A stretch of 64,000 bases of DNA from Luzula sylvatica (Eukaryota; Streptophyta; Magnoliopsida; Poales; Juncaceae). A model generated the notes under the pieces. It searched no databases. It was not told the DNA's origin and saw nothing but the letters and a program-made list of their open reading frames with translations. Position numbers and translations under genes: made by a program. Shown here piece after piece: positions 12,509-56,753 of the stretch; position 1 is the first letter of the stretch, and the number at the start of each line of letters is the position of its first letter. The stretch spans positions 28,064,914 to 28,128,913 of the forward strand of contig OX326958.1 in the NCBI GenBank assembly GCA_946800325.1, written 5' to 3'.

Positions 12509-14647
12509 CTTGACAATCTATTGAGGCCTTGAGGAGTTCAAATAACGTGTTTTTGTGATTTTTTGGATCGATTCTTTTACTAAGTAACTATTCACCAAAT
12601 CGTACAAACACTAATAAAATTTTCTTTTCGATTCATAGCAATCTTTTTACGTTTTAAGGAGTTCAAATAACGAGTTTTTGAGATTGTTTGTATCGAATCT
12701 GTTACTACATAATTTTTCATAAAATTTTACAAACACTAAGAAAGTTTGTTTTTCGATTCATAGCAATCTTTTTATGCTTTGAGCAGTCCAAATAACATGT
12801 GTTTAAGATGGTTTGGATCGAATTTTTTAGTACGTAAGTTTTCACCAAATTTAAAAACACAAAGAAAGATTGTTTTTCGATTCATATCAGTATTTTTACG
12901 ATTTGAGGAGTCCAAATAACGTGTTTGTTAGATTGCTTGGATCGAATATTTTATGACGTAACTTTTCACCAAATTGTACAAACACTAAGAAAGTTTGTTT
13001 TTTGATTCATAGCAATCTTTTTACGCTTTGAGGAGTCCAAATAACGTGTTTTTTAGATTGTTTGGATCAAATCTTTTATGATGTAACTTTTCACCAAATT
13101 GTACAAACATTACCAAAGTTTGTTTTCGTCGTAGGCAGTCTTGACAATCTATTTATGCCTTGAGGAGTCCAAATAACGTGTTTTTGAGATCTTTTGGATT
13201 GAATCTTTTACTATGTCACTTTTCACTAAATTGTACAAATACTAAGAAAGTTTGCTTTTCGATTCATAACAATCTTTTTACGCTTTAAGGAGTTGAAGTA
13301 TCGAGTTTTTGAGATCGTTTGTATCAAATCTTTTACTACATAACTTTTCACCAAATTTTACAAACACTAACAAAATTTGTTTTTCGATTCATAGCAATCT
13401 TTTTATACTTTTAGGAGATCAAATAACGTGTTTTGAGATGGTTTGGATCGACTCTTTTATTACGTAAGTTTTCACCAAATTTTACAAACACTAAGAATTT
13501 TTTTTTTTCGATTCATGTCAATCTTTTTACACTTCTAGGAGTCCAAATAACGTGATTTTGAGATTGTTTGGATCGAATCTTTTATTACATAAGTTTTCAC
13601 CAAATTTAACAAACACTAAGGAAGTTTGTTTTTCGATTCATAGCAATCTTTTTACATTTTGAGGAGTCCAAATATCGTGTTTCTTTGATCGTTTACTTCG
13701 AAAGTGTACTATACAAGTTTTCACCAAATTGTACAAATATTACTAAAGTTTGCTTTCGCTGTAGACAGTCTTGACAATCTTAGGCATTGAGGAGTCTGAT
13801 TAACGTGTTTTTTAGATTTATTATGGATCGAATCTTTTATGACATAACTTTTCACCAAATTGTACAAACATTAAGAAAATTTATTTTTCGATTCATAGCA
13901 ATCTTTTTATGGTTTGAGGAGTCTAAATAACGTGTTTTTGAGATCGTTTGTATCGAATCGTTTACGACATAATTTTTCACCTTATTTTACAAAAAACTAC
14001 GAAAGTTTGTTTTTCTTTATTGCAGCCTAAGAAATCTATTTAGGCATTGGGGAGTCCATATGACATGTTTTGAGATCGTTTACATCGAAAGTTTTCCAAC
14101 ACAACTTTTCACCAAATTGTATAAACATTATGAAATTTTATTTTTTTCACCCTAGGGAGTCTTGGAAATCTGTTTAGGCATTGGGGAGTCCAAATAACGT
14201 GTTTTGAGATCGTTCACTTCGTAAGCTTACTATACAAGTTTTCACCAAATTGTACAAACATTACGGAAGTTTGTTTTCGATGTAGGTAGTCTTGACAATC
14301 TATTGAGGCTTTGAGGAGTTCAAATAACGTGTTTTTGTGATCTTTTGGATCGAATCATTTAGTAAGTAACTTTTCACCAAATTGTGCAAACACTAAGAAA
14401 GTTTTATGTTCGAATCATAGCAATCTTTTTACGCATTTATGACTTCAAATAACGAGTTTTTGAGATCGTATGTATCGAATCTTTTACTACATAACTTTTC
14501 ACCAAATTTTACAAACACTATGAAAGTTTATTTTGTCGATTCATACCAATATTTTTACGCTTTGAGGAGTCCAAATAACATGTTTTGAGATGGTTTGGAT
14601 CGAATATTTTATTACGTAAGTTTTCACCAAATTTTACAAACACTAAG
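12509..14647 (+). repeat. Satellite array B, forward segment 1 (~125-bp monomer)
   Basis: About 17 head-to-tail monomers of 124-125 bp. Landmarks in each: GAGGAGTCCAAATAACGTG, ATCGTTTGTATCGAATC, TTTTCACCAAATTTTACAAA, CACTAAGAAAGTTTGTTT and TCATAGCAATCTTTTTACGC. Neighbouring monomers differ in a regular way ('GTTTGTATCGAATC...CTACATAAC' against 'GTTTGGATCGAAT...TTACGTAAG'), and some carry a CGTAGGCAGTCTTGACAATC variant. No protein is encoded; apparent frames are by-products of repetition. Confidence 0.92.
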
Positions 14648-16326: not shown

Positions 16327-18140
16327 ACAGTTTTCACCAAATTGTACAAACATTATGGAAGTTAGTTTCGCTGTAGGCAGTCTTGACAATCTATTGAGGC
16401 TTTGAGGAGTTCAAATAACGTGTTTTTGTGATCGTTTGGATCGAATCTTTTACTAAGTAACTTTCACTATATTGTGCAAACACTAACAAAGCTTGTTTTT
16501 CGATTCCTAGCAATTTGTTTTATGCTTTATTGAATTCAAATAATGAATTTTTAAGATCGTTTGTATCGAATATTTTACTACATAACTTTTCACCAAATCA
16601 AACACTAGGAAAGTTTATTTTTCGATTCATAGCAATCTTTTTAATGCTTTGAGGAGTCCAAAAAACATGTTTTGAGATGGTTTGGATCGAATATTTTATT
16701 CCGTAAGTTTTCACCAAATTTTACAAATACCAGGAAGGTTTGTTTTTTCGATTCATATCAATCTTTTCACTCTTTCAGGAGTTCAAATAACGTGTTTTGA
16801 GATCGTCTGTATCGAATCTTTTACTGCATAACTTTTCACCAAATTTAACAAACACTAAGAAAGTCTGTTTTTCGATTCATAGCAATCTTTTTACGCTTTG
16901 AGGAGTCCAAATAACGTGATTTGCTATGGTTTGGATCGAATCTTTTATTACGTAAATTTTCACCAAATTTTACAAACACTAAGAAAATTTGTTTTTTCAA
17001 TTCATATCAATCTTTTTACAATTTCAGGAGTTCAAATAACGTGTTTTTTAGATCGTTTGTATCGAATCGTTTACTACATAAGTTTTCACCAAATTTTACA
17101 AACACTAAGGAAGTTTGTTTTTCGATTCATAGCAATCTTTTTATGCTTTGAGCAGTCCAAATAACGTGTTTTTTAGATTGTTTACTTCAAAAGTTTTACT
17201 ATACAAGTTTTCACCAAATTGTACAAACATTACTAGAGTTTGTTTTCGCCGTAGGCAGTCTTGACAGTCTATTTAGGCTTTGAGGAGTCCAAATAACGTG
17301 TTTTGTAGATTGTTTGGATCGAATATTTTATGACGTAACTTTTCACCATATTGTACAAACACTAAGAAAGTTTGTTTTCCGATTCATAGCAATATTTTTA
17401 TGCTTTGAGGAGTCAAATAACGTGTTATTGAGATCGTTTGTATCGAATATTTTACTACATAATTTTTCACCAAATTTTACAAACACTACGAATGTTTGTT
17501 TTTCTCTATTGCAGTCTAAGAAATCTATTTAGACATTGAGTAGTCCATATACATCCCTGGTCGGGTCAAATTTCCTTTCTTTTTCTCCGTCAAAGCTGCT
17601 TTCAATCCAGAGGAGGAATGCTCCAAAACAAAGAAGGGGACCGACTGGCGGAGTTCTGGCTGCTTCCTTTGCCTACTGTCGGAGATCATTTACATCGAAA
17701 GCTTTCCAAACACAACTCTTCACTAACTTGTACAAACATTACGAAGTTTAGTTTTTTCATCCTAGGCAGTCTTGGAAATCTGTTTAGGCGTTGGGGACTC
17801 CAAATAATGTGTTTTGAGATCTTTCACTTCGAAAGTTTACTATATATGTTTTCACCAAATTGTACAAACATTTCGAAAATTTGTTTTCGCTGTAGGCAGT
17901 CTTGACAATCAATTGAAGCTTTGAGGACTTCCAATAACGTGTTTTTGTGACTTTTTGGATCGAATCTTTGAATAAGTAACTTTTCACCAAATTGTGCAAA
18001 CACTAAGAAAGTTTGCTTTTCGATTCATTGCAATCTTTTTACGCGTTAATGAGTTCAAATAACTAGTTTTTGAGATCGTTTGTTTCGAATCTTTTACTAC
18101 ATCACTTTTCACCAAATTATACAAACACTAAGAAAGTGTC
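16327..18140 (+). repeat. Satellite array B, forward segment 2
   Basis: About 14 further forward monomers of the same ~125-bp unit, including the CGTAGGCAGTCTTGACAATC variant. The segment is interrupted at 17552-17681 by unrelated sequence. Orientation reverses at about 18141. Confidence 0.9.
17552..17681. other. Filler DNA inside satellite B
   Basis: About 130 bp of non-satellite, GC-richer sequence replaces about 11 bp of a monomer (compare the intact monomer at 14051-14100). There is no target-site duplication and no inverted ends, so it looks like filler at a repaired double-strand break rather than a transposon. Origin unknown. Confidence 0.6.
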
Positions 18141-18973
18141 TTTTTTGACTCCTCAGAGCGTTAAAATATTATTATGAATCGAAAAACAAGCTTTCTTGGT
18201 GTTTGTCAAATTTGGTGAAAATTTATGTAGTAAAAGATACAACACAAACGATCTAAAAACACATTATTTGAACTCCTCAAAGCGTAACAAGATTGCTTTG
18301 AATAAAAAAACAAGCTATCTTAGTGTTTGTACAATTTGGTGAAAATCTACATCATCAAAGGTTCGATTCAAACAATCTAAAAAACACGTTATTTGGTGTC
18401 CTCAAAACGTAAAAAGATAGCTATGAATCGAAAAACAAACTTTCTTAGTGGTTGTAAAATTGGGTGCAATGTTATGTAGCAAAATATACGATACGTATGA
18501 TCTAAAAACACATTATTTGAACTCCTCAAAGCATAAAAAGATTGATATGAATCGAAAAGAAAACTTTCTTAGGGTTTGTACAATTTGGTGAAAAGTTAGG
18601 TAGTAAAAGATTAGATCCAAACCATCTAAAAAACACGTTATTTGGACTCCTCAAACCGTTAAAAGATTGTTATGAATTGAAAAGAGAACTTTCTTAGTGT
18701 TTGTACAATTTGGTGAAAAATTACGCAGTAAAAGACTCAATCCAAACCATCTCAAAAGCACGTTATTTTGGTTCCTCGGAGCGTTAAAAGATAGTTATGA
18801 ATAGAAAAACAAACTTTCTTAATGTTTGTAAAATTTATGTAGTATAAGGTACGATACCAATGATCTAAAAACAAGTTATTTGACATACTCAAAGCGTAAA
18901 AATATTGCTATTAATCGAAAAGAAAACTTTTTTAGTGTTTGTAAAATTTGGTGAAAAATTGCATAGTAAAATA
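18141..18973 (-). repeat. Satellite array B, reversed segment 1
   Basis: The same monomer now reads as reverse complement: GACTCCTCAGAGCG, AAAACAAACTTTCTTAGTG, TTTGGTGAAAAGTTATGTAG, GATACAAATGATCT. The switch occurs within 'AAGAAAGTGTCTTTTTTGACTCC' near 18135-18155, with no spacer of other DNA. Confidence 0.9.
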
Positions 18974-19811: not shown

Positions 19812-20248
19812 CACCTTTTCAAACAGAAACTGCATACACCCTTTCAGTATTCTGTTGAAACGAAATTGTTAAATCGTTCCAACCGACTTTAAACCTTCAC
19901 TAAAGTTGTAGATAATCTTATTATCTTTCCATCCCAATTTGTCCCAGCCCAATTGGAGTTTGGATGCGAAAGTTATGACGGTTTTACTAAATGTATGTCA
20001 AACTGTCGCACCCTTTCGGTATTTCATTAAAACGACACTGATACTTCGCTCAAATGAAATATATTTCTTCATGAAAGTTCTAGATAATCTCATTATCTAT
20101 CTAGGCCAATTTGAACCATTCAAATTGGAGTCGTTATCTGAAAGTTATGGCAGTTTTACTAAACCTGTTTCTTATGCCCACGAACGCGTACGTTCGTTTG
20201 TCCTTCTACGTACCATTTTAGCGATGATCCAAAACTGTATTTCCTTCA
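19812..20248 (-). mobile_element. Truncated LTR of the 14.6-kb family
   Basis: On the minus strand it starts TGAAGGAAATACAG at 20248 and matches the first ~430 bp of the 1-kb LTR, including GAACGTACGCGTTCGTGG and two copies of AAACCGTCATAACTTT-like text. The 3' part is absent and satellite B flanks both sides. Confidence 0.65.
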
Positions 20249-21631
20249 AACGATACGATACAAATGATCTAAAAACACGTTATTTGAACTCCTCAAAACG
20301 TAAAAAGATTGCTATGAATGGAATAGAAAACTTTCTTAGTGTTTGTATAATTTGGTGAAAAGTTACGTAGTAATAGATTCGATCGAAACCATCTCAACAA
20401 CATTTTATTTGGACTCCTCGGAGCGTTAAAAGATTGTTATGAATCCAAAAACAAACTTTCTTAGTGTTTGTAAAATTTAGTGAAAAGTCATGTAGTAAAA
20501 GTTATGATACAAATGATCTAAAAACACGTTATTCAAACTCCTAAGAGCGTAAAAAGATTGATATGAATGGAAAATAAAAATTTCTTAGTGTTTGTACAAT
20601 TTGGTGAAAAGTTACGTATTAAGAGATTCGATCCAAACCATCTAAAAAATACGTTATTTGGACTCCACAAAGTATTAAAAGATTGTTATGAATCGAAAAA
20701 CACTTTCTTAGTGTGTGTAAAATTTGGACAAAATTTATGTAGTAAAAGATACAATACAATTGATCTAAAAACACGTTATTTGAACTCCTCAAAGCGTAAA
20801 AAGATTGCTATGAATCGAAAAGAAAACTTTCTTAGTGTTTGTACAATTTGGTCAAAAGTTACGTAGGGAAAGATTCGATCCAAATTATCTCAAAAACACG
20901 TTATTTGGACTCCACATAGCATTAACAGATTGTTATGAATCGTAAAACAAACTTTCTTAGTGTTTGTAAAATTTGGTGAAAAGTTATGTAGTAAAAGATA
21001 CGATACAAATGATTTAAAAACACGTTATTTGAACTCCTGAAAGCGTAAAAAGATTGCTATGAATGGAATAGAAAACTTTCTTAGGTTTTGTATAATTTAG
21101 TGAAAAGTTACGTAGTAAATGATTTGATCCAAACCATCTCAAAAACACGTCATTTGTCAGAGCGTTAAAAGATTGTTATGAATCGAAAAACAAACTTTCT
21201 TAGTGTTTGTAAAATTTGGTGAAAAGTTATGTAGTAAAGATACGATACAAATGATCTAAAAACACGTTATTTGAACTCCTCAATGCGTAAAAAGATTGAT
21301 ATGAATGGAAAAAAAACTTTCTTAATGTTTGTACAATTTGGTGAAAAGTTACGTAGTAAAAGTTTCGATCCAAACCATCTCAAAAACACGTTATTTGGAC
21401 TCCTCGGAGCTTTAAAAGTTTGTTATGAATCGAAAAACAAACTTTCTTATTGTAAAATTTGGTGAAAAGTTATGTAATAAAAGATACGATACAAATGATC
21501 TAAAAACACGTTATTTGAACTCCTCAAAGCGAAAATAGATTGATATGAATGGAAAAGAAAATTTTCTTAGTGTTTTTACAATTTGGTGAAAAGTTACGTA
21601 GTAATAGATTCGATCCAATCCATCTCAAAAT
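20249..21631 (-). repeat. Satellite array B, reversed segment 3 with dimeric period
   Basis: About 11 reversed monomers in which two subtypes strictly alternate. Subtype 1 has GATCCAAACCATCTCAAAA, TTTGGACTCCTCGGAGCG and GATTGTTATGAATCG. Subtype 2 has GATACAAATGATCTAAAAA, TTTGAACTCCTCAAAGCG and GATTGCTATGAATGG. The true repeating unit is therefore a dimer of about 250 bp. Monomers here are more uniform than at the array edges. Confidence 0.9.
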
Positions 21632-24660: not shown

Positions 24661-24984
24661 AGTAATGAGTTTATGAGTTATGACCATATGATCTTGTGCT
24701 AAGAGAGTTGATCCTTTCCTCGCTAATTATTAATGAAGTCCTTTCATGAGAGAGAGAGAGAGTTGGGGGGAATGAAGCCTGGTCCGAGATCATCCATAGC
24801 CATAGGGTATGAGCTATTGAAGAGAGAAGACAGACAGACGGACCCTGCCCGTGGGATGGCCTCGAACCAAACAACATTCCCCTCAACTGTATTTTCTGAA
24901 TTTACTCGAAGAGAGAAAACGAACATGAGATCCTGGGGTGCTATAGAAAAATTAAAGAGAATGTGTGAGTGCGCGCGTCTACGG

Positions 24985-33439: not shown

Positions 33440-33620
33440 TTCACACCTCCCCCCTCTCTCTCTCATCTCATCACCAACCAAACAAAACATAAATTCAAAA
33501 CATCCAAACCTAAACTCACTCAAAAAGAAAAGCCAAAACAAACATAAATTCTCTTTCTCTCTAATTTACATTTTCTTCGAAAAAAGAGCTACAAATTTTC
33601 GTACGAACGTCTCGTTACAA

Positions 33621-33833
33621 ATGGCTCAGCTATCAGTTGTAGTTTTGTTTATGTTCTTGTTGGCGACTTCGTGTTCTCAGGAAGTGGTTGCGGCGAGACT
33701 TCTTAAAGGAGAGCAACAACACTGGCCGAAAGCTGGCAGTCTTCTATTGAGGGTCCTCGCGAAAGGAGGCCCTCCATCGGGGAGAAGTAATTGTGGTAAT
33801 GACCCTAACAACACGGGGGGGAATTGCAGATAG
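33621..33833 (+). CDS. Secreted signalling peptide precursor, CTNIP/SCREW-like
   Basis: 70 aa. Residues 1-25 form a hydrophobic signal peptide ending VVAA. A polar stretch with RLLKGE follows, then the conserved C-terminal block LLRVLAKGGPPSGRSNC with Cys58 and Cys69 separated by ten residues rich in Asn and Gly. Length, signal peptide and conserved Cys-bearing C-terminus fit small phytocytokine precursors secreted to the apoplast. The CTNIP/SCREW family, known ligands of the receptor kinase HSL3, is the best match I can propose; the PIP/PIPL family shares the SGPS-like core. The ATG at 33621 is chosen over an upstream in-frame start at 33366 because it opens directly on the signal peptide. 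Paralogs lie at 36223 and 50020. Confidence 0.78.
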   Translation: MAQLSVVVLFMFLLATSCSQEVVAARLLKGEQQHWPKAGSLLLRVLAKGGPPSGRSNCGNDPNNTGGNCR

Positions 33834-37147: not shown

Positions 37148-40100
37148 ATGACAGTCCAAGGCAGCGTTTTCGGGCTCCCACATGTTTCGCAACTTATTTT
37201 CGATGCCGAAAATTACGATTATTGGATTATTAAAATGAAGACTCTTTTGATCGCGCAAGATCTATGAGAAATAGTAGAAGAGGGAGTGACTACGACAAAA
37301 GAAGCCGAAACTACTGAAGCGGGGAAACAAAATAAGAAGAAAGATGCAAAAGTCCTATACTTGATACAACAAGTAATTTCGGATAAATTATTCCCGAGAA
37401 TAATTGGCGCTAAAACTTCGAAGGAGGCGTAGGAGATTTTGCAACGACAATTTCAAGGAAACGAAAAAGTGAGAACGGATAAACTCTTTACGCTTAAGAG
37501 AGAATTTCAAAACATGAAGATGAAGGAGAACGATACCCTCAAAGATTTTTTTCTCCAATATTTTAGAAGTGATAAACCAAATAAAAGGTTTTGGCGAAGA
37601 AATGACCGATAAATCGCTTTGCGAGAAAATACTTATTAGCATTTCTTCAAAATACATCAACATGGCTTCTATTATCGAAGAAATCAAAGATCTATCGACT
37701 CTTAGTGTGCATGACTTGATGGGTTTTTTAGAGAGGCACGAACAATGATTAAATCGAGGCACCGAGCAATCTTCAGAGAGTGTGTTCCAATCAAAAGCTG
37801 CCGTAACCGAATCATCAAACCAAAATACTGTTAAGGGAAAATCATTTCGTGGGGGTCGAAACGGTAGAGGTCGAGGTCAGGGAAGATTTGGAAGATTAGG
37901 AGGTAGAAGAAATTACCAAAATAATCAAGATCAATGGTGTGGTGTGTGCAAAAGTTCGACTCGTGCCGAGAAAGATTGTTGGAACAAAGGAAAGACTCAA
38001 TGCTACAATTGCAATAAGTTCGGCCATATTAAAAATGATTGCCGAGTTAAAACAATTGAACAATCCAATTATACCGAAGAGAAAATCGACAATGAAAATA
38101 TTTTCTACACGTGTCAAGCGGCCTTTGAGAAGAAGAATGATGTGTGGTACGTCGATAGCGGGCGTAGCAACCATGTGACCTGAATCGAATCGGTCTTTAG
38201 TGAAATCGACAAGACGACCACTACTCAAAATACCATGGAAAATGATGCGGTTGTTCGATCTAAAGGAAAAGGAACGATTGCAATTGAGTCGAAGAAATGT
38301 CGAATGTTCATTCGAGATGTGTCGTTTGTCCCGGAGTTGGCGCAAAATTTGTTGAGTGTTGGACAATTGGTTGAGAATGGACACACGGTCCATTTCGAAG
38401 GCGATTGTTGCAAAAAATTTGAAAAGGCGAAAAACGGAGGTCAAGTAATAGCGAATATTAAAATGAAAAAAAATCGAAATTTTCCTCTCACTCTTGAAAC
38501 ATCGAAACTTGTCGCTTTGGCAGCCGGTGTGGAAGATGTATCATGGTTGTGGCACAGAAGGCTCGGCCATGTGAATTTTGGGAGTTTGAAGTTCTTGAGT
38601 AAAAAAAATACATCGAGAATCATTTCCGAAAGAAAATGCATCGAGAAAAATCTACGGTTTACCGAATATTGAAGAGAATGATGATGTGTGTGAGGCGTGT
38701 GCTCTTGGTAAAATACATCGAGAATCATTTCCGAAAGAAAATATATGGAGAGCGACAAAATCATTGGAGCTATTGCATACCGATGTTTGTGGTCCAATGA
38801 AGACACCTTCACAAGGCGGTAACCGATATTTCATTATCTTCATAGACGATTACTCGAGGATGTGTTGGATTTATTTCATTAAACAAAAATTCGATGCATT
38901 TTCTATCTTCAAGAAGTTTCAAATGATGGTTGAGAGGCAAAGTGGATGCTTCATCAAGAAGTTACGAAGTGATCGAGACGGCGAATACAATTCTAAAGAG
39001 TTCGACAAATTTTGTGAAGATGTCGGATTAGAGAGGCAATTGACGGTTGGATATACACCCGAACAAAATGGTGTTGCCGAAATGAAGAATCGGACAATCG
39101 TTGAAATGTCACGAGCAATGTTGAATGAGAAGGGTCTTCCGACTATTTTTTGGGCTGAGGCAGCGAGTACCTCGGTTTATTTGTTAAATCGATGTCCGAC
39201 AAAAGCGGTGAAAGATAAAACGCCGTTTGAAGTGTGGTCCGGTAATAGAAAATCATCGGTCAATCGCTTGCGAATTTTCGGATCTATTTGCTACACGCAT
39301 GTTCCGAAAAAGATGAGACACAAGCTTAAAGAAAGAGGAGAAAAGTGTGTCTTTGTGGGTTCTAGCTCACAATCAAAGGGTTGTAGACTCTTTAGTTTGA
39401 AAAGAAATAAATTAATAACGAGCCGCGATGTGATTTTTAATGAAAAAGCCAAGTGGGATTGGAAAGGAAAAGGAGTTGATGATGACTCCGTTGTAGTAGA
39501 AGAAAAACAACCCGACCCGCGAGTTGAGAAAAATAATGATGAAGATGAAAGTGAAGAAGAAGAAAAAATACCGCGATCTCCTCCGACAAATATCGCATCA
39601 AGTTCCTCAACACGAAAACCAACACCGATAAAAATGAGAAGATTAAGTGATATTTATATGAATTGCAATTTTTGTGTCGTAGAACCGACATGTTTTGAGC
39701 AAACGATTCAAGAGGAGGTTTGGAGAAAAGCGAGGGAAGAAGAAATAAAAATGATCGAGAAAAATAAAACGTGGGAGTTAGTCGAGAAATTGAACGAGAA
39801 AGGTGTAATCGGGTTAAAGTGGATTTATAAGACGAAAATAAATCCGGATGAATCGGTTCAAAAATACAAGGCGAGACTAGTTGCGAAAGGATACACTCAA
39901 CAACCCGGTACCGACTATCAAGAGACGTTCACGCCGGTGGCAAGACACGAGACGATTAGATTGTTGATTGCATTGGCCGCACATAAAGGTCGGAAATTAT
40001 ACCAACTTGTTGTGAAATCTGCTTTCTAAATGGTGTGTTGAAAGAGGAGGTCTACGTGGAGCAACCGCAAGGATTTGTGGTTGACGAAGACGATAACAAG

Positions 40101-41801
40101 GTCTACAAATTGTAGAAGGCTTTGTATGGGCTGAAACAAGCACCCCGTGCATGGTATAACAATATTGATGCGTACTTCACCGAAAAATGGTTTAAAAGGA
40201 GTCCGAGTGAACCAACCCTTTACATCAAGCAAGGCAAAACCGGTATGATTGTCGTTTCTCTTTATGTCGATGATTTCATTGTTACCGGTAGTGATGAAAA
40301 GATGGTGCGAGAATTCAAAGAGGATATGATGAAGAAATATGAGATGAATGATTTGGGATTACTTCATTATTTTTTGGGTATCGAGATTAATCAAAGCGAA
40401 GATGGAGTTTTTATTTCGCAAATGAAGTATGCCCAAAATATTCTCACTAAATTTAAATGGAGAATTGTAATCCGGTGACGATACCGATTTTGGTGAATGA
40501 AAAGATGATGAAAGAAGATGGTAGTGGTGATGCCGACGAATCAGTCTATAGAAGCATAATAGGTAGTTTATTATACCTTGTCGTTACAAGACCCGACATT
40601 ATGTATGGAGCGGGTTTGTTATCTCGGTTCATGAATAAGCCGAACAAATTACATTTTGGAGTAGCGAAGAGATTATTGCGATACATACAAGGTACCAAAG
40701 ATTTCGGACTTATGTATGAGAAGAATGAGAAAGCGAAAATAGAATTGGTTGGATTTTGTGATAGCGATTGGGCCGGTAGTGTGGATGACATGAGAAACAC
40801 ATCCGGTTACGCATTTACCCTCGGATCGGCTATATTTTCATGGGCCTCGAAGAAGCAAGAACGAGTCGCGATTTCAACGATGGAGGCGGAATACGTGTCG
40901 GCAAATGAAGCCGCGAGACAAGTTGAATGTTGAGAAAGGTGTTAGAAGACATGGGGGAGAAACAAGAAACAGCAACGGTTCTCTTTTGCGATAAAATCCG
41001 TGATAGACATGGGGGGAATACGTCTTCCATAGTCGAACCAAGCATATCAAGCTACGACCAAGGTTGTTAAAATCGGGATTCTACCTTGAATCGATCGGGG
41101 GTAGAATCGAATCGGATCGTAAAATCGTATGTAGAATCGTAAGATTCTATGGAAAATAGAAAAATAAAATAAAATAATATATTGTCAACACATTTTATAA
41201 TCGAGACATATCAAAGCATGCATTAACCATACTCACCCAAAATATATAATATAAACTTCTAATTTGCAAATTTGAAAATTTGGGCGAAATTAAGATAGCT
41301 TCTCTTCTTCTCCTTCTTGAATTGGGAAATGGTATCAAATGAGAATATAAAGTGACACGGTGGGGAATGTGAAGAGACACAATTATATTGGAAAATAATT
41401 GTTAGTTTTGGCACATAAGTGTATTGGGCTATTAATTTTTTTATGTTTGGCATTCAAATATTTGTAACATTAATATAATCGTAGAATCTTAAATTACACT
41501 TGATTCTACACGATTCTACGATTTAACTCCCGATTCAACCTCGATTGTACTAAATTACGATTTTACGCACGACTTGACTCGTTTTCTTCTCTCAGAATCG
41601 TAGAATCGTGCGATTTTACGAGTTGAATCGCGATTTTGACAACTATGGCTACGACATCACTTTATTCGAGAAGTGGTTGGAGATGACGAACTCATTGTCA
41701 AGCATGTCAAATCCGAAGATCAATTGGAGGATATTTTCACTAAGGCGCTTCCAAACGAGAATTTTGTTCGCTTTCGAAAAATTATGGGAAATGACGAATA
41801 A
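37148..41801 (+). pseudogene. Copia gag-pol polyprotein, decayed
   Basis: From an ATG at 37148, gag shows NYDYWIIKMKTLL, then TGA at 37265 where Trp is expected, and a further stop at EA*EILQ. The nucleocapsid region has two zinc knuckles: CGVCKSSTRAEKDC (38-kb region, His replaced by Arg) and CYNCNKFGHIKNDC (intact). The protease motif is DSGRSNH (usual Cys replaced by Arg), followed by a stop. The pre-integrase WLWHRRLGHVNF, integrase Asp-Asp-Glu signature (DVCGPM, RSDRDGEY, NGVAEMKNR), RT (LYVDDFIV at about 40260; KARLVAKGYTQ upstream) and RNase H (CDSDWAG, TMEAEY) follow. A frameshift lies near 40020, a TAG at about 40113, and a hAT insertion splits the C-terminus, which ends EDQLEDIFTKALPNENF before TAA at 41799. 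Confidence 0.93.
41059..41647. mobile_element. hAT element inside copia pol, TSD GCTACGAC
   Basis: Ends CAAGGTTGTTAAAATCG and ...CGATTTTGACAACTATG. GCTACGAC is duplicated at 41051-41058 and 41648-41655. Removing it and one copy of the duplication rejoins the copia reading frame end. Interior is AT-rich with repeated AGAATCGTAGAATCG motifs and no transposase. Same end type as the 8122-8700 element. Confidence 0.9.
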
Positions 41802-53835: not shown

Positions 53836-54500
53836 TTAAACATAAAAAGAAAACAAATTAGAAGGACAATGAATAAAATGTTTGAATCCAAGTGTTCCTA
53901 TAATATCCAAAAATGCGAGTTATGCGATTTATTTCAAAATTTATGTTTTGCTCTTAGTTTTTCAAGACATGCTTACGAATGAAAATTTCCCTAAATCTAT
54001 TTTGAAAAGAAAAATAATAATAATATATGCCAATGTGTCAATCAATAAAAATTGCAATAAAGGAGATATATAAATAGCACATTTAAATAATTATATATAA
54101 ACAAATTATAAAAATTGCAAATGCACTTCACATTATAAAAAGATGTAATATGTGAAAGGGTTACAAATATATTTTGATTTACACAGTGTTTGGAAATTTT
54201 TAATAAAATTTAATATTTAATATAAGATTTAAAAGATTCAAAATTTATTGTTTTAGGTTCTTACAAGAATGTCCTCGTTATTAATCGGTCCATTTTTCAT
54301 TAAGACAAATTCAACAAATCTAACCTACCTTCAACTAGTCCATGTTTTACAGCATATTAATCGAGATAATTCATATCATAAAATCTCATGCAAATCATTT
54401 GAATTAATTACCTAAACCACATACAATTTATCATATCATAAAATTTCATGCAAATCATTTGAATTAATTACCTGAACCACATACAATTTATCTGTGTTAC
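53836..54500. other. Upstream region of the multi-peptide precursor
   Basis: AT-rich. A ~65-bp unit (TCATATCATAAAATCTCATG...ACCACATACAATTTATC) is tandemly duplicated at about 54371-54491, just before the TATA box. Confidence 0.6.
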
Positions 54501-54508
54501 TATATAAA
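54501..54508 (+). promoter_or_regulatory. TATA box of the multi-peptide precursor
   Basis: TATATAAA lies 50 bp upstream of the ATG, implying a very short leader. Confidence 0.65.
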
Positions 54509-54558: not shown

Positions 54559-55365
54559 ATGGCTTTTCCACATACGTTATTTGTGTTTTCATGTTTTGTT
54601 TTATTAATCTTTAGTTTCGAATTAGCTATATCGGTCGCAAGACCAATTCACGAAAATAACGGTCGTAGTATTCCGGCAAATCTTCCAAAACGTCCTTCAT
54701 CATCTCTTGGTAAAGGAGGACATAGTATTTCGACAAATCCATCAAAATTTTCTCTGTCATCTTTTGATAAAGGAGGACACAATATTTCGGCCAATCCACC
54801 AAAAAATCCCCCATCATCGCCCAATAAAGATGGACATAATATTCCGGCAAATCCGCCAATAAATCCTCCATCATCTCCCGGCAAAAGGGGACACATTATA
54901 CCGGCAAATCCACCAAAAATTCCTCCATCATCACTGGGTAAAGAAGGACATAGTATTGGGACAAATCTAAACAAAGTATCATCAAGAGATTCAGTCCTCT
55001 CATCATCTCCTGGTGGTGGTGGACATAGCAATCTGCTAAGTCTAGAGAAATATTTGTATCAAAACAAACTCCTTTCAAGAGGTTCAGTCCCTCCATCATC
55101 TCCTGGTGGTGATGGGCATGAAAATATACCGTCAAGTGTAGAGAAATGTTCAGGTCAAAATGATGTCCTATCAAGAGGTTCAGTCCTTCCATCATCTCCT
55201 GATGGTGGTGGACATGACAATATGCCGTCAATTGTAGAGAAACAGTTTAATCGATTGGAGAATGTATCTTGTTTGGACATTTTTAAAAAGGGCCCATCTC
55301 CCGGTGGTGGTGGGCATGGTGACACTAACTCTTATAAAAAAATCCAAATTCTCCCCTCCCATTAA
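54559..55365 (+). CDS. Multi-copy PIP/CEP-like secreted peptide precursor (nine cores)
   Basis: 268 aa. Signal peptide residues 1-27 (LFVFSCFVLLIFSFELAISVA) then RPIHENNGR. Nine copies of a core ending in Gly-His follow, with the His at residues 55, 74, 93, 112, 131, 156, 187, 219 and 253. The first five are spaced by exactly 19 residues (57-bp tandem repeat, e.g. IPANPPINPPSSPGKRGH). The last four sit in longer units of 25-34 residues containing LSRGSV and VEK. The ninth, KGPSPGGGGH, matches the PIP consensus SGPSPxGxGH in all but the first Ser; others resemble the SPGxGH end of CEP peptides. Both families are hydroxyproline peptide hormones cut from secreted precursors and read by LRR receptor kinases. 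PIP precursors usually carry one or two cores, so nine is exceptional. The last 11 residues and stop appear to derive from a Helitron. No paralog in the window. Confidence 0.82.
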   Translation: MAFPHTLFVFSCFVLLIFSFELAISVARPIHENNGRSIPANLPKRPSSSLGKGGHSISTNPSKFSLSSFDKGGHNISANPPKNPPSSPNKDGHNIPANPPINPPSSPGKRGHIIPANPPKIPPSSLGKEGHSIGTNLNKVSSRDSVLSSSPGGGGHSNLLSLEKYLYQNKLLSRGSVPPSSPGGDGHENIPSSVEKCSGQNDVLSRGSVLPSSPDGGGHDNMPSIVEKQFNRLENVSCLDIFKKGPSPGGGGHGDTNSYKKIQILPSH

Positions 55366-56753
55366 TTTTTGAATACTAGAGATATGGTGAGGCCACGTCA
55401 CCCTGGTACTGTTCATCGATAATGTTCACCGGTACTGTTCATTCCGTTACTGTTCAATAAGTTACTGTTCATCTCGGTACTATTCTTTTTTTTTTTTTTT
55501 GGAATTTTATTTTATTTGACATATGTCTTGTGTTCTAAATAAAATATTTGAATTTTTCATCGTATTAATAAATATAATTGACATATGTCTTGTGTTCTAA
55601 ATAAAATATTTGAATTTTTCATCGTATTAATAAAAATAATTTGTATACTATAATTTTACTGTTAACAAAATACTATTCACACAAATACTTTTTGTTAGCC
55701 TGAGCTGGTATTATTATTTTTTTTGGCTTATTATAACAGTTTTGATTGGTACCAATAGGGGTGTAAACGGTTCGGATCCGGTTCGGGTAGTGGTCATACC
55801 AGATCCGGATCCGTATTTTTTGTCGGATCCGGATCCGGATAGTGTCGGATCCGGATACGGTTCGGATATTAAACGGATACGGATACGGTTCGGATATCGT
55901 CGGATACGGGTACGGATCCGGATAATATTCTGATAGTTCAGACATATATTGTATATGTAATTAATTATTTTTTTCTAACCAAAATATTTATGATACAATT
56001 ATGATAATACTTAAGTAATAAATAATATAATTATACTTTACTAAATTCAAATATTTGTCGAATATAATAGAGTAATTTGGTCGAAATGATGAAAACGTGA
56101 GTTTGACTAATAATTTATGTCGCGCGAATACGGATACTAATAATTTATAATGTATACAATATTATATTTTTATTAATCAATTCAAAATATATTTCTTAAA
56201 TTTTAATTTAATTCTTATATTAAAGGAAATTATTATATGATATTTTACAAATAACAATAGGTCGTGGCTTAAATTCTTTATTTTGACAAGACCATGGCTT
56301 GCATAGACCATGTTATATTTGTAATTAACAATATGTTAATTATTGATAGGTAATTAAATACATTACTTATATTTCAAGTTTTATATGTAGGGGCTTCTAT
56401 CATACACATTTTGGAAAAACGGGTACCCGTTTTGCATTGCTATTCGGATCCGGGTAATTATCCGGATCCGACCGTATTTTTTGTTCCGGATCCGAAAAAA
56501 CGGATCCGGGTAGTATCCGGATCCGCTCGGATCCGGATAATTTTATTCGGATCCGGTTCGGGTCGGGTCGGGCATTACCCGCACCATTTACATCCCTAGG
56601 TACCAAGCTGCGTTTTTTTTTGCTTATTATAATATTTTTGATTTGTACCAATTCTAAATATATCAAATAATATATAAAATTATTACTTTTGCTTATTATA
56701 TTATTTCTTATCAAATAATATACCCCGCAGCGAAGCGCGGGATATTGTCCTAG
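55330..56753 (+). mobile_element. Non-autonomous Helitron overlapping the peptide gene's end
   Basis: The 3' end is clear: CCCCGCAGCGAAGCGCGGG (56723-56741), then ATATTGTC and CTAG|T (to 56753). The proposed 5' end is TCTTATAAAAAAATCC at 55330, matching TCTTATATATAAATC of the 29.2-kb and 52.3-kb elements. A GAGGCCACGTCACC motif follows about 60 bp in, as in the sisters. Inside are five TTACTGTTCA-like repeats (55409-55484), a 63-bp tandem duplication (55518-55643) and a hAT element. The base before the 5' TC is C instead of the usual A. Confidence 0.65.
55756..56598. mobile_element. hAT-type element nested in the Helitron, TSD GGTACCAA
   Basis: Inverted ends TAGGGGTGTAAACGG and, on the other strand, TAGGGATGTAAATGG. 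A perfect GGTACCAA duplication lies at 55748-55755 and 56599-56606. Subterminal blocks are dense in GGATCCGG/CGGATACGG repeats. Interior is AT-rich; near 56391 lies a relic of a MULE-MITE end (GGGGCTTCTATCATACAC). No transposase. Confidence 0.87.

Follow-up and report, generated by a model that had tools for sequence, protein, structure and literature searches.

We propose that an open reading frame of Luzula sylvatica encodes a modular secreted polyprotein of the PIP/IDA group, a pre-pro-protein precursor that would be cut into several short ligands, and we consider this reading probable. The sequence analysed (hereafter the window) is a 64,000-nt stretch of plant DNA with 32.5% GC, placed at C3:28064914-28128913 of the 445-Mb genome (37 contigs). 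One open frame with an ATG start, at window positions 54559..55365 (forward strand, as are all features of this gene given below), specifies a protein of 268 aa. Its N-terminus is hydrophobic and it contains nine GH dipeptides, whose His residues are at positions 55, 74, 93, 112, 131, 156, 187, 219 and 253; the description in the earlier note of nine Gly-His cores behind one signal peptide is therefore correct. ATG ORFs in 30 order-1 Markov windows reached at most 166 aa, as compared to 268 aa, and GH dipeptides in 5000 shuffled sequences averaged 1.42 and never exceeded 6, as compared to 9. Since Markov windows and shuffles stay well below the observed values, we conclude that the ORF and its nine GH dipeptides are not due to chance.

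Hydropathy and sequence place the signal peptide at residues 1–27 (54559..54639), with a mean hydropathy of 2.19 for residues 6–21, a value that reflects hydropathy only. Cleavage is likely to occur before Arg28-Pro29. The sequence around this site is SVA-RP, and the Arg is also found in seven paralogues and in two proteins described below, P0002 and P0003. Upstream of the ORF, a TATA box, TATATAAA (54501..54508), is located 50 bp before the ATG. This element is present in 9/9 open family members, and is replaced by TACATAGA in a decayed sister copy at C2:50507374. A 60-bp tandem duplication in the promoter (54371..54492) is single copy in the same sister. Downstream, AATAAA at 55538..55543 is a possible poly(A) signal, followed by three more, the last of which ends at 55634. 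The 3′ flank also includes a 62-bp tandem duplication (55516-55641; 98% match) with AATAAA in each copy.

The first five GH ends follow an exact 19-residue period, as the earlier note had observed, whereas later spacings are 25, 31, 32 and 34 residues. At the DNA level, the ORF contains a 57-bp tandem repeat of 5.1 copies and then a 96-bp repeat of 2.8 copies. Aligned on GH, the last eight residues are SSLGKGGH, SSFDKGGH, SSPNKDGH, SSPGKRGH and SSLGKEGH for cores 1–5, and SSPGGGGH, SSPGGDGH, SSPDGGGH and PSPGGGGH for cores 6–9. We sorted the cores into three blocks: block I has Lys three residues before His, block II has an LSRG context, and block III is defined by FKKGPSPGGGGH. By this rule, the nine-core gene has a block I/II/III composition of 5/3/1, corresponding to Lys-type, LSRG-SVPPSSPGGGGH-type and PIP-type units. 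Block I spans 54667..54951 and consists of five 19-residue units ending in SSSLGKGGH, LSSFDKGGH, PSSPNKDGH, PSSPGKRGH and PSSLGKEGH; regular expressions counted four of these units, and the fifth, TNPSKFSLSSFDKGGH, was assigned by unit alignment. Block II comprises core 6 (SSRDSVLSSSPGGGGH; 54979..55026), core 7 (LSRGSVPPSSPGGDGH; 55072..55119) and core 8 (LSRGSVLPSSPDGGGH; 55168..55215). Block III is the PIP-type core 9 (DIFKKGPSPGGGGH; 55276..55317). Within block I, pN/pS was 0.43 in the last ten codons (core) versus 0.92 in the first nine (spacer), these values being sums over related pairs with no probability attached. The nine GH codon pairs differ from one another only synonymously.

PIP/PIPL precursors, represented in Arabidopsis by PIP1–3 and PIPL1–8, give rise to PAMP-induced secreted peptides; PAMP induction and action through RLK7 are traits of this group. 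The nine-core protein shares with them an N-terminal signal peptide (as judged by hydropathy only), a conserved Arg directly after it, and GH ends. Core 9 (KGPSPGGGGH, as compared to SGPSPRGRGH in AtPIP1) matches SGPSxxGxGH at 6/7 fixed positions, so the claim that the last core fits the PIP consensus holds for these positions, but not for SGPS, which is absent from the entire protein; GPS occurs once, within core 9. Cores 1–8 match at only 3 or 4 of the 7 positions. The GxGH end is present in 4/9 cores, whereas the other five have Lys at the first Gly position. Moreover, PIP/PIPL precursors carry one or two cores at the extreme C-terminus, whereas here nine cores are spread along the chain and 15 residues follow the last. 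A membership in the CEP family was considered and rejected: SPGxGH has 0 matches, and each core agrees at 2-3 of 5 positions. The earlier note had read the cores as SPGxGH with one variable residue; this is not the case, since two residues separate PG from GH (e.g. SPGKRGH, SPGGGGH). Likewise, the IDA/IDL motif S[GAV]PS is absent from the protein, and all nine cores end in GH, without (R/K)(R/K)HN. The repeats of extensin/PRP cell-wall proteins are absent too, with 0 occurrences of both SP3-5 and PPx[YK].

We compared the cores to five references, including AtPIP1 (RLASGPSPRGRGH) and AtPIP2 (VKHSGPSPSGPGH) as given in the available part of PMC10704477, IDA (FGYLPKGVPIPPSAPSKRHN), which is cut at Lys|Gly according to the available text of PMC5972575, and the common CEP domain from the accessible portion of PMC4197245. 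Composition shuffles served as the control (45 tests; all p values are uncorrected). The score of core 9 was reached by 0/1000 shuffles each for AtPIP1 and AtPIP2, and that of core 4 against IDA by 0/1000 shuffles. Cores 3 and 7 scored against IDA with p 0.013 and 0.014, and cores 6 and 8 against PIPs with p 0.017-0.033, while cores 1, 2 and 5 did not score above shuffles against any of the five references (best p 0.128). Relatives in this comparison were L003, L005, P0002, P0003 and P0004 only; among these, the block III cores of P0002, FEVFK[RM]G[ED]SPRGAGH, against AtPIP1, and LSRGPVPPSAPSGGGH of L005 against IDA were each matched by 0/1000 shuffles. Given that the protein lacks SGPS, HN ends and SPGxGH, the gene is by strict rules neither a PIP nor an IDA gene. 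Judged by sequence, the chain is a mixture of IDA-like and PIP-like units that fits neither family strictly. Hence, of the PIP/CEP-like character assigned to the cores by the earlier note, the PIP part applies to core 9, whereas there is no CEP match and the other eight cores are of other types, some of them nearer to IDA. Similarly, an expanded secreted polyprotein is still the best-supported reading, but its cores are not of one PIP/CEP kind.

Precursors with many cores are already known from the CLE and CEP families. In Arabidopsis, 3/11 PIP/PIPL members have two motifs and AtCEP9 has five, according to the accessible part of PMC4526919, and a survey of 128 PIP precursors from 23 species describes, in the text available, members with one or two SGP (PMC10704477). 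Rice CLE75 contains six CLE motifs in 250 aa (PMC2254619), and Oelkers et al. proposed for CLE that several peptides are released; wheat has two genes with seven and eight CLE-like domains, and no wheat PIP or CEP with several domains is described in the accessible text of the same paper (PMC9532867). The nine-core protein resembles multi-domain CLE precursors, as far as these are described in the parts available, in having a regular core array with similar spacing (32-36 residues in CLE75, 19-34 here), but those cores are CLE cores and a rice precursor is built of very similar units, whereas the family described here combines three unit classes whose numbers vary among paralogues. The resemblance to CEP consists of the GH end and the existence of multi-core members such as AtCEP9 (five motifs in the available part of PMC4526919); unlike CEP precursors, the protein has neither SPGxGH nor a FRPTxPG stretch. 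With respect to IDA/IDL, the block II pattern LSRG-x-V-PPSxP resembles LPKG-VPI-PPSAPS of IDA, and core 3 of L005 is PVPPSAPSGGGH; the nine-core protein differs in ending in GH rather than (R/K)(R/K)HN, in having many copies, and in having further cores behind. In the titles and abstract starts of the matches listed for literature on multi-core PIP and Moraceae/mulberry peptides, a set that subscription papers mostly fall outside, the family is undescribed. What looks new is the presence of nine cores in a precursor of the PIP/IDA group, of three classes of unit within a single chain and of copy numbers that vary independently.

A six-frame search of the genome with the nine-core protein listed 32 matches, several of them to one locus. 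Nine loci among these matches have open precursors: the nine-core gene, P0002 (C1:22844587; 220 aa), and seven copies of 129–130 aa with three cores each. Their block I/II/III compositions are 5/3/1 for the nine-core gene, 2/2/3 for P0002 and 1/2/0 for the seven three-core copies; block numbers vary independently among family members. The P0002 count includes a first block I unit that ends in RHH rather than GH and leaves out three short SPPGGH ends (residues 107, 137 and 167); likewise, the counts do not include the GH that precedes the first unit in P0001 and P0002, at residue 36. By sequence, cores 1 and 6 of the nine-core protein each resemble one side of core 1 in the three-core proteins, as would be expected from unequal exchange between units. 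The remaining matches are decayed pieces or, at E > 0.2, mostly chance-like. Pieces of the family form three clusters, at C3:28.12-28.14, C2:50.507-50.520 and C3:40.170-40.188 Mb, with blocks that are mostly 85–98% alike; the gene in the window is the sole open copy among the members of these clusters that we looked at. The best match in a genome search with P0004 had an E value of 6.65, and no single-core PIP gene was located by this search. The IDA peptide matched C2:60637517 (E 0.014), which may be an IDA gene.

Outside the genome, the 268-aa protein had no match among Pfam and PDB sequences, and 0/2163 candidates from 5.8 billion proteins reached E≤10. A seven-sequence profile had a sole, weak match, P0003, a Ficus carica protein with three cores (E 0.22), among the 7999 scored candidates listed. 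When P0003 was searched back against the genome, 4/4 matches were in the nine-core family (E 3e-4, 0.006, 0.04 and 0.51). Among 14 candidates, a protein search with P0003 gave P0003 itself together with P0006 (Ficus carica, partial), P0004 and P0005. Proteins P0003–P0006 have two or three cores each, and two of the three cores of P0004, SGPSASGPGH and SGPSPGGGGH, match the PIP consensus at 7/7 positions. Pairwise matches are weak (E 4e-4 for P0003 and the nine-core protein; E 0.023 for P0004 and P0002). Aligning the nine-core family to the P0003 group with hhalign gave a probability of 92.8 and a score of 43.6, whereas none of 100 column shuffles scored above 17.1. Shuffling the core columns alone gave a mean of 22.9 and a maximum of 37.9, whereas shuffling the spacers alone gave a mean of 30.9 and a maximum of 47.5, above the real score. 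Given that spacer shuffles reach the real score, we conclude that the link between the family and the Ficus proteins is carried only by the signal peptide and the cores in order.

The seven three-core copies differ by about 6%. Their flanks (2094 columns) contain 52 gap events whose length is not a multiple of 3, whereas the CDS (393 columns) has 0 frameshifting indels and one 3-bp event. From the flanks, 9.8 frameshifting indels would be expected in the CDS (Poisson P 5.8e-5, a rough value, since gap events are not fully independent and AT-rich non-coding flanks are prone to slippage). Among at least 67 substitutions there is no nonsense change, as compared to about 2.7 expected. However, pN/pS pooled over the 21 pairs is 0.92, which indicates no strong purifying selection on the residues of the seven copies; by part, pN/pS is 0.94 for cores, 0.71 for spacers plus tail, and 2.16 for the signal peptide, where there are few synonymous changes. 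A frame that is retained while its residues change almost freely is consistent with a recent burst followed by relaxed or diversifying evolution. For the nine-core gene, flanks compared to the sister have diverged by 3.3% with 5.2 frameshifting gaps per kb, both branches taken together, so that only about 2 frameshifts are expected on its own branch, and its open frame is consequently weak evidence of selection. The first 55 codons differ from those of the sister at 15 sites, of which 4 changes fall on the nine-core branch (3 nonsynonymous), 9 on that of the sister and 2 on neither, as judged with 6/8 of the available outgroup sequences. The earlier note had set neutral repeat decay against its own reading. 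We do not favour decay for the family, given that frames are kept in seven paralogues, although for the nine-core copy the evidence is weak.

A unit of about 3.2 kb is common to the seven three-core copies. It has one sharp end, 1.58–1.69 kb past the stop codon, which is also where a high-copy repeat ends (2783 first-look candidates, of which 40 were scored). The unit end is at L037:3245-3900 with matching ends in L031–L036, and DNA beyond it is mostly unrelated between loci. An inverted pair of about 50–110 bp is found near the 3′ end in 7/7 three-core regions; no inverted repeat joining both ends of the unit was found. The promoter block of the unit had only 23 scored candidates and 38 matching pieces, the majority of which fall on or next to loci already assigned to the family; at C3:55.163-55.178 Mb there are promoter-block matches only. 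Transposon-mediated spread of the three-core peptide gene is possible. The nine-core gene is located within DNA shared with C2:50.5 Mb at 90–95% (94% over 1977 bp, plus further pieces). A high-copy repeat that starts with TAGGGGTGTAAACGG 391 bp past its stop codon extends from window position 55756 to beyond 56400. It had 2773 first-look candidates, and 40 scored copies on contigs C1–C6 are 96–99% identical; this repeat may be hAT-like.

These observations bear on three rival explanations. The family may be functional while the nine-core copy, as a duplicate that is young, relaxed or dying, gained its repeats by unequal crossing-over and has no function. We regard this as somewhat unlikely. 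The sister is decayed, with four of its five indels in the aligned coding part being frameshifting, no C-terminal half within the stretch aligned, and a changed TATA box; further decayed pieces lie nearby at C3:28130761 and C3:28141064; cores 1 and 2 have drifted; and three of the four early changes on the nine-core branch are nonsynonymous. However, the reading frame runs open through all nine cores, the 57-bp repeat has an exact period, the TATA box is intact, and all nine GH pairs have been kept with synonymous change only. That the ORF is instead a passenger, multiplied by a mobile unit and with no role of its own, is suggested by the shared unit and its sharp repeat-associated end, but seems very unlikely to us: the promoter block has a low copy number (C3:55.16-55.18 Mb and C4:15293773 fall outside the loci examined), the pieces listed at the nine-core locus lack the outer end of the unit, this locus lying in DNA shared with C2:50.5 Mb, and reading frames are kept while flanks gain indels. 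A structural Pro/Ser/Gly-rich cell-wall or arabinogalactan-type protein, the other alternative named in the earlier note, would be consistent with the composition of the mature part (13% Pro, 17% Ser, 13% Gly) and its nine AP/PA/SP/TP dipeptides. This identity is not favoured and we judge it to be highly improbable, since SP3-5 and PPx[YK] are missing, YxY occurs once and Pfam gives no match; moreover, block I cores are more constrained than their own spacers, and the remote relative P0004 has exact SGPSxxGxGH cores.

If the polyprotein reading is correct, the nine-core chain would be secreted, block II would be cleaved before the Gly of L-S-R|G, by analogy with the Lys|Gly cut of IDA, and each core would be trimmed after GH. 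Hydroxylation of Pro would then yield GH-ended products such as GSVPPSSPGGDGH, GPSPGGGGH and NPPSSPGKRGH. These could be perceived by LRR receptor kinases of the HAE/HSL2-RLK7-CEPR group, receptors that are grouped together in the accessible part of PMC4526919, with core 9 being the best candidate for RLK7; amplification of blocks would set the dose and mix of ligands. We infer every step past synthesis of the chain, by analogy with known precursors. In a more specific version, IDA-like peptides from blocks I and II and PIP-like peptides from block III would be released together, with unequal crossing-over setting the number of blocks; we consider this version unlikely. If it were true, the HAE/HSL2 branch and the RLK7 branch of one receptor group could both be addressed by one transcript, in a ligand ratio set by block copy number (5/3/1, 2/2/3 or 1/2/0). 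Alternatively, off-consensus cores might occupy a receptor without activating it, such that the precursor acts as a decoy or antagonist. This is scarcely probable, although 8/9 cores agree with the PIP consensus at only 3–4 of 7 positions, since good scores against AtPIP1 were obtained for core 9 as well as for all three block III cores of P0002, and nothing here supports antagonism.

Returning to the polyprotein precursor, release of the cores would mean that repeat expansion in this family rapidly alters how many ligands a precursor holds and of which kinds, and that IDA-like and PIP-like classes, which are treated as separate families, share one chain. This would bear on the kinship of IDA, PIP and PIPL, and would provide natural dose and mixture variants for tests of receptor specificity. 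Our data also suggest that precursors of this type can escape searches aimed at a single core at the C-terminus.

Elsewhere in the window, an ORF at 33615-33833 (+) resembles a small secreted peptide of 72 aa, MAQLSVVVLFMFLLATSCSQEVVAARLL...LAKGGPPSGRSNCGNDPNNTGGNCR; it has PPSG and two Cys near the C-terminus, and no Pfam match. A MIR166 precursor is located at 24762-24887 (−; 82 bits). A 125/249-bp unit forms tandem arrays, some in each orientation, within 9.1 kb, at 12514-14647, 16387-17504, 18144-18971 and 20248-21630. Copia-type pieces in several frames extend over 37749-40933 (+), and the part that was scanned, 38599-40026, contains integrase and reverse transcriptase domains.
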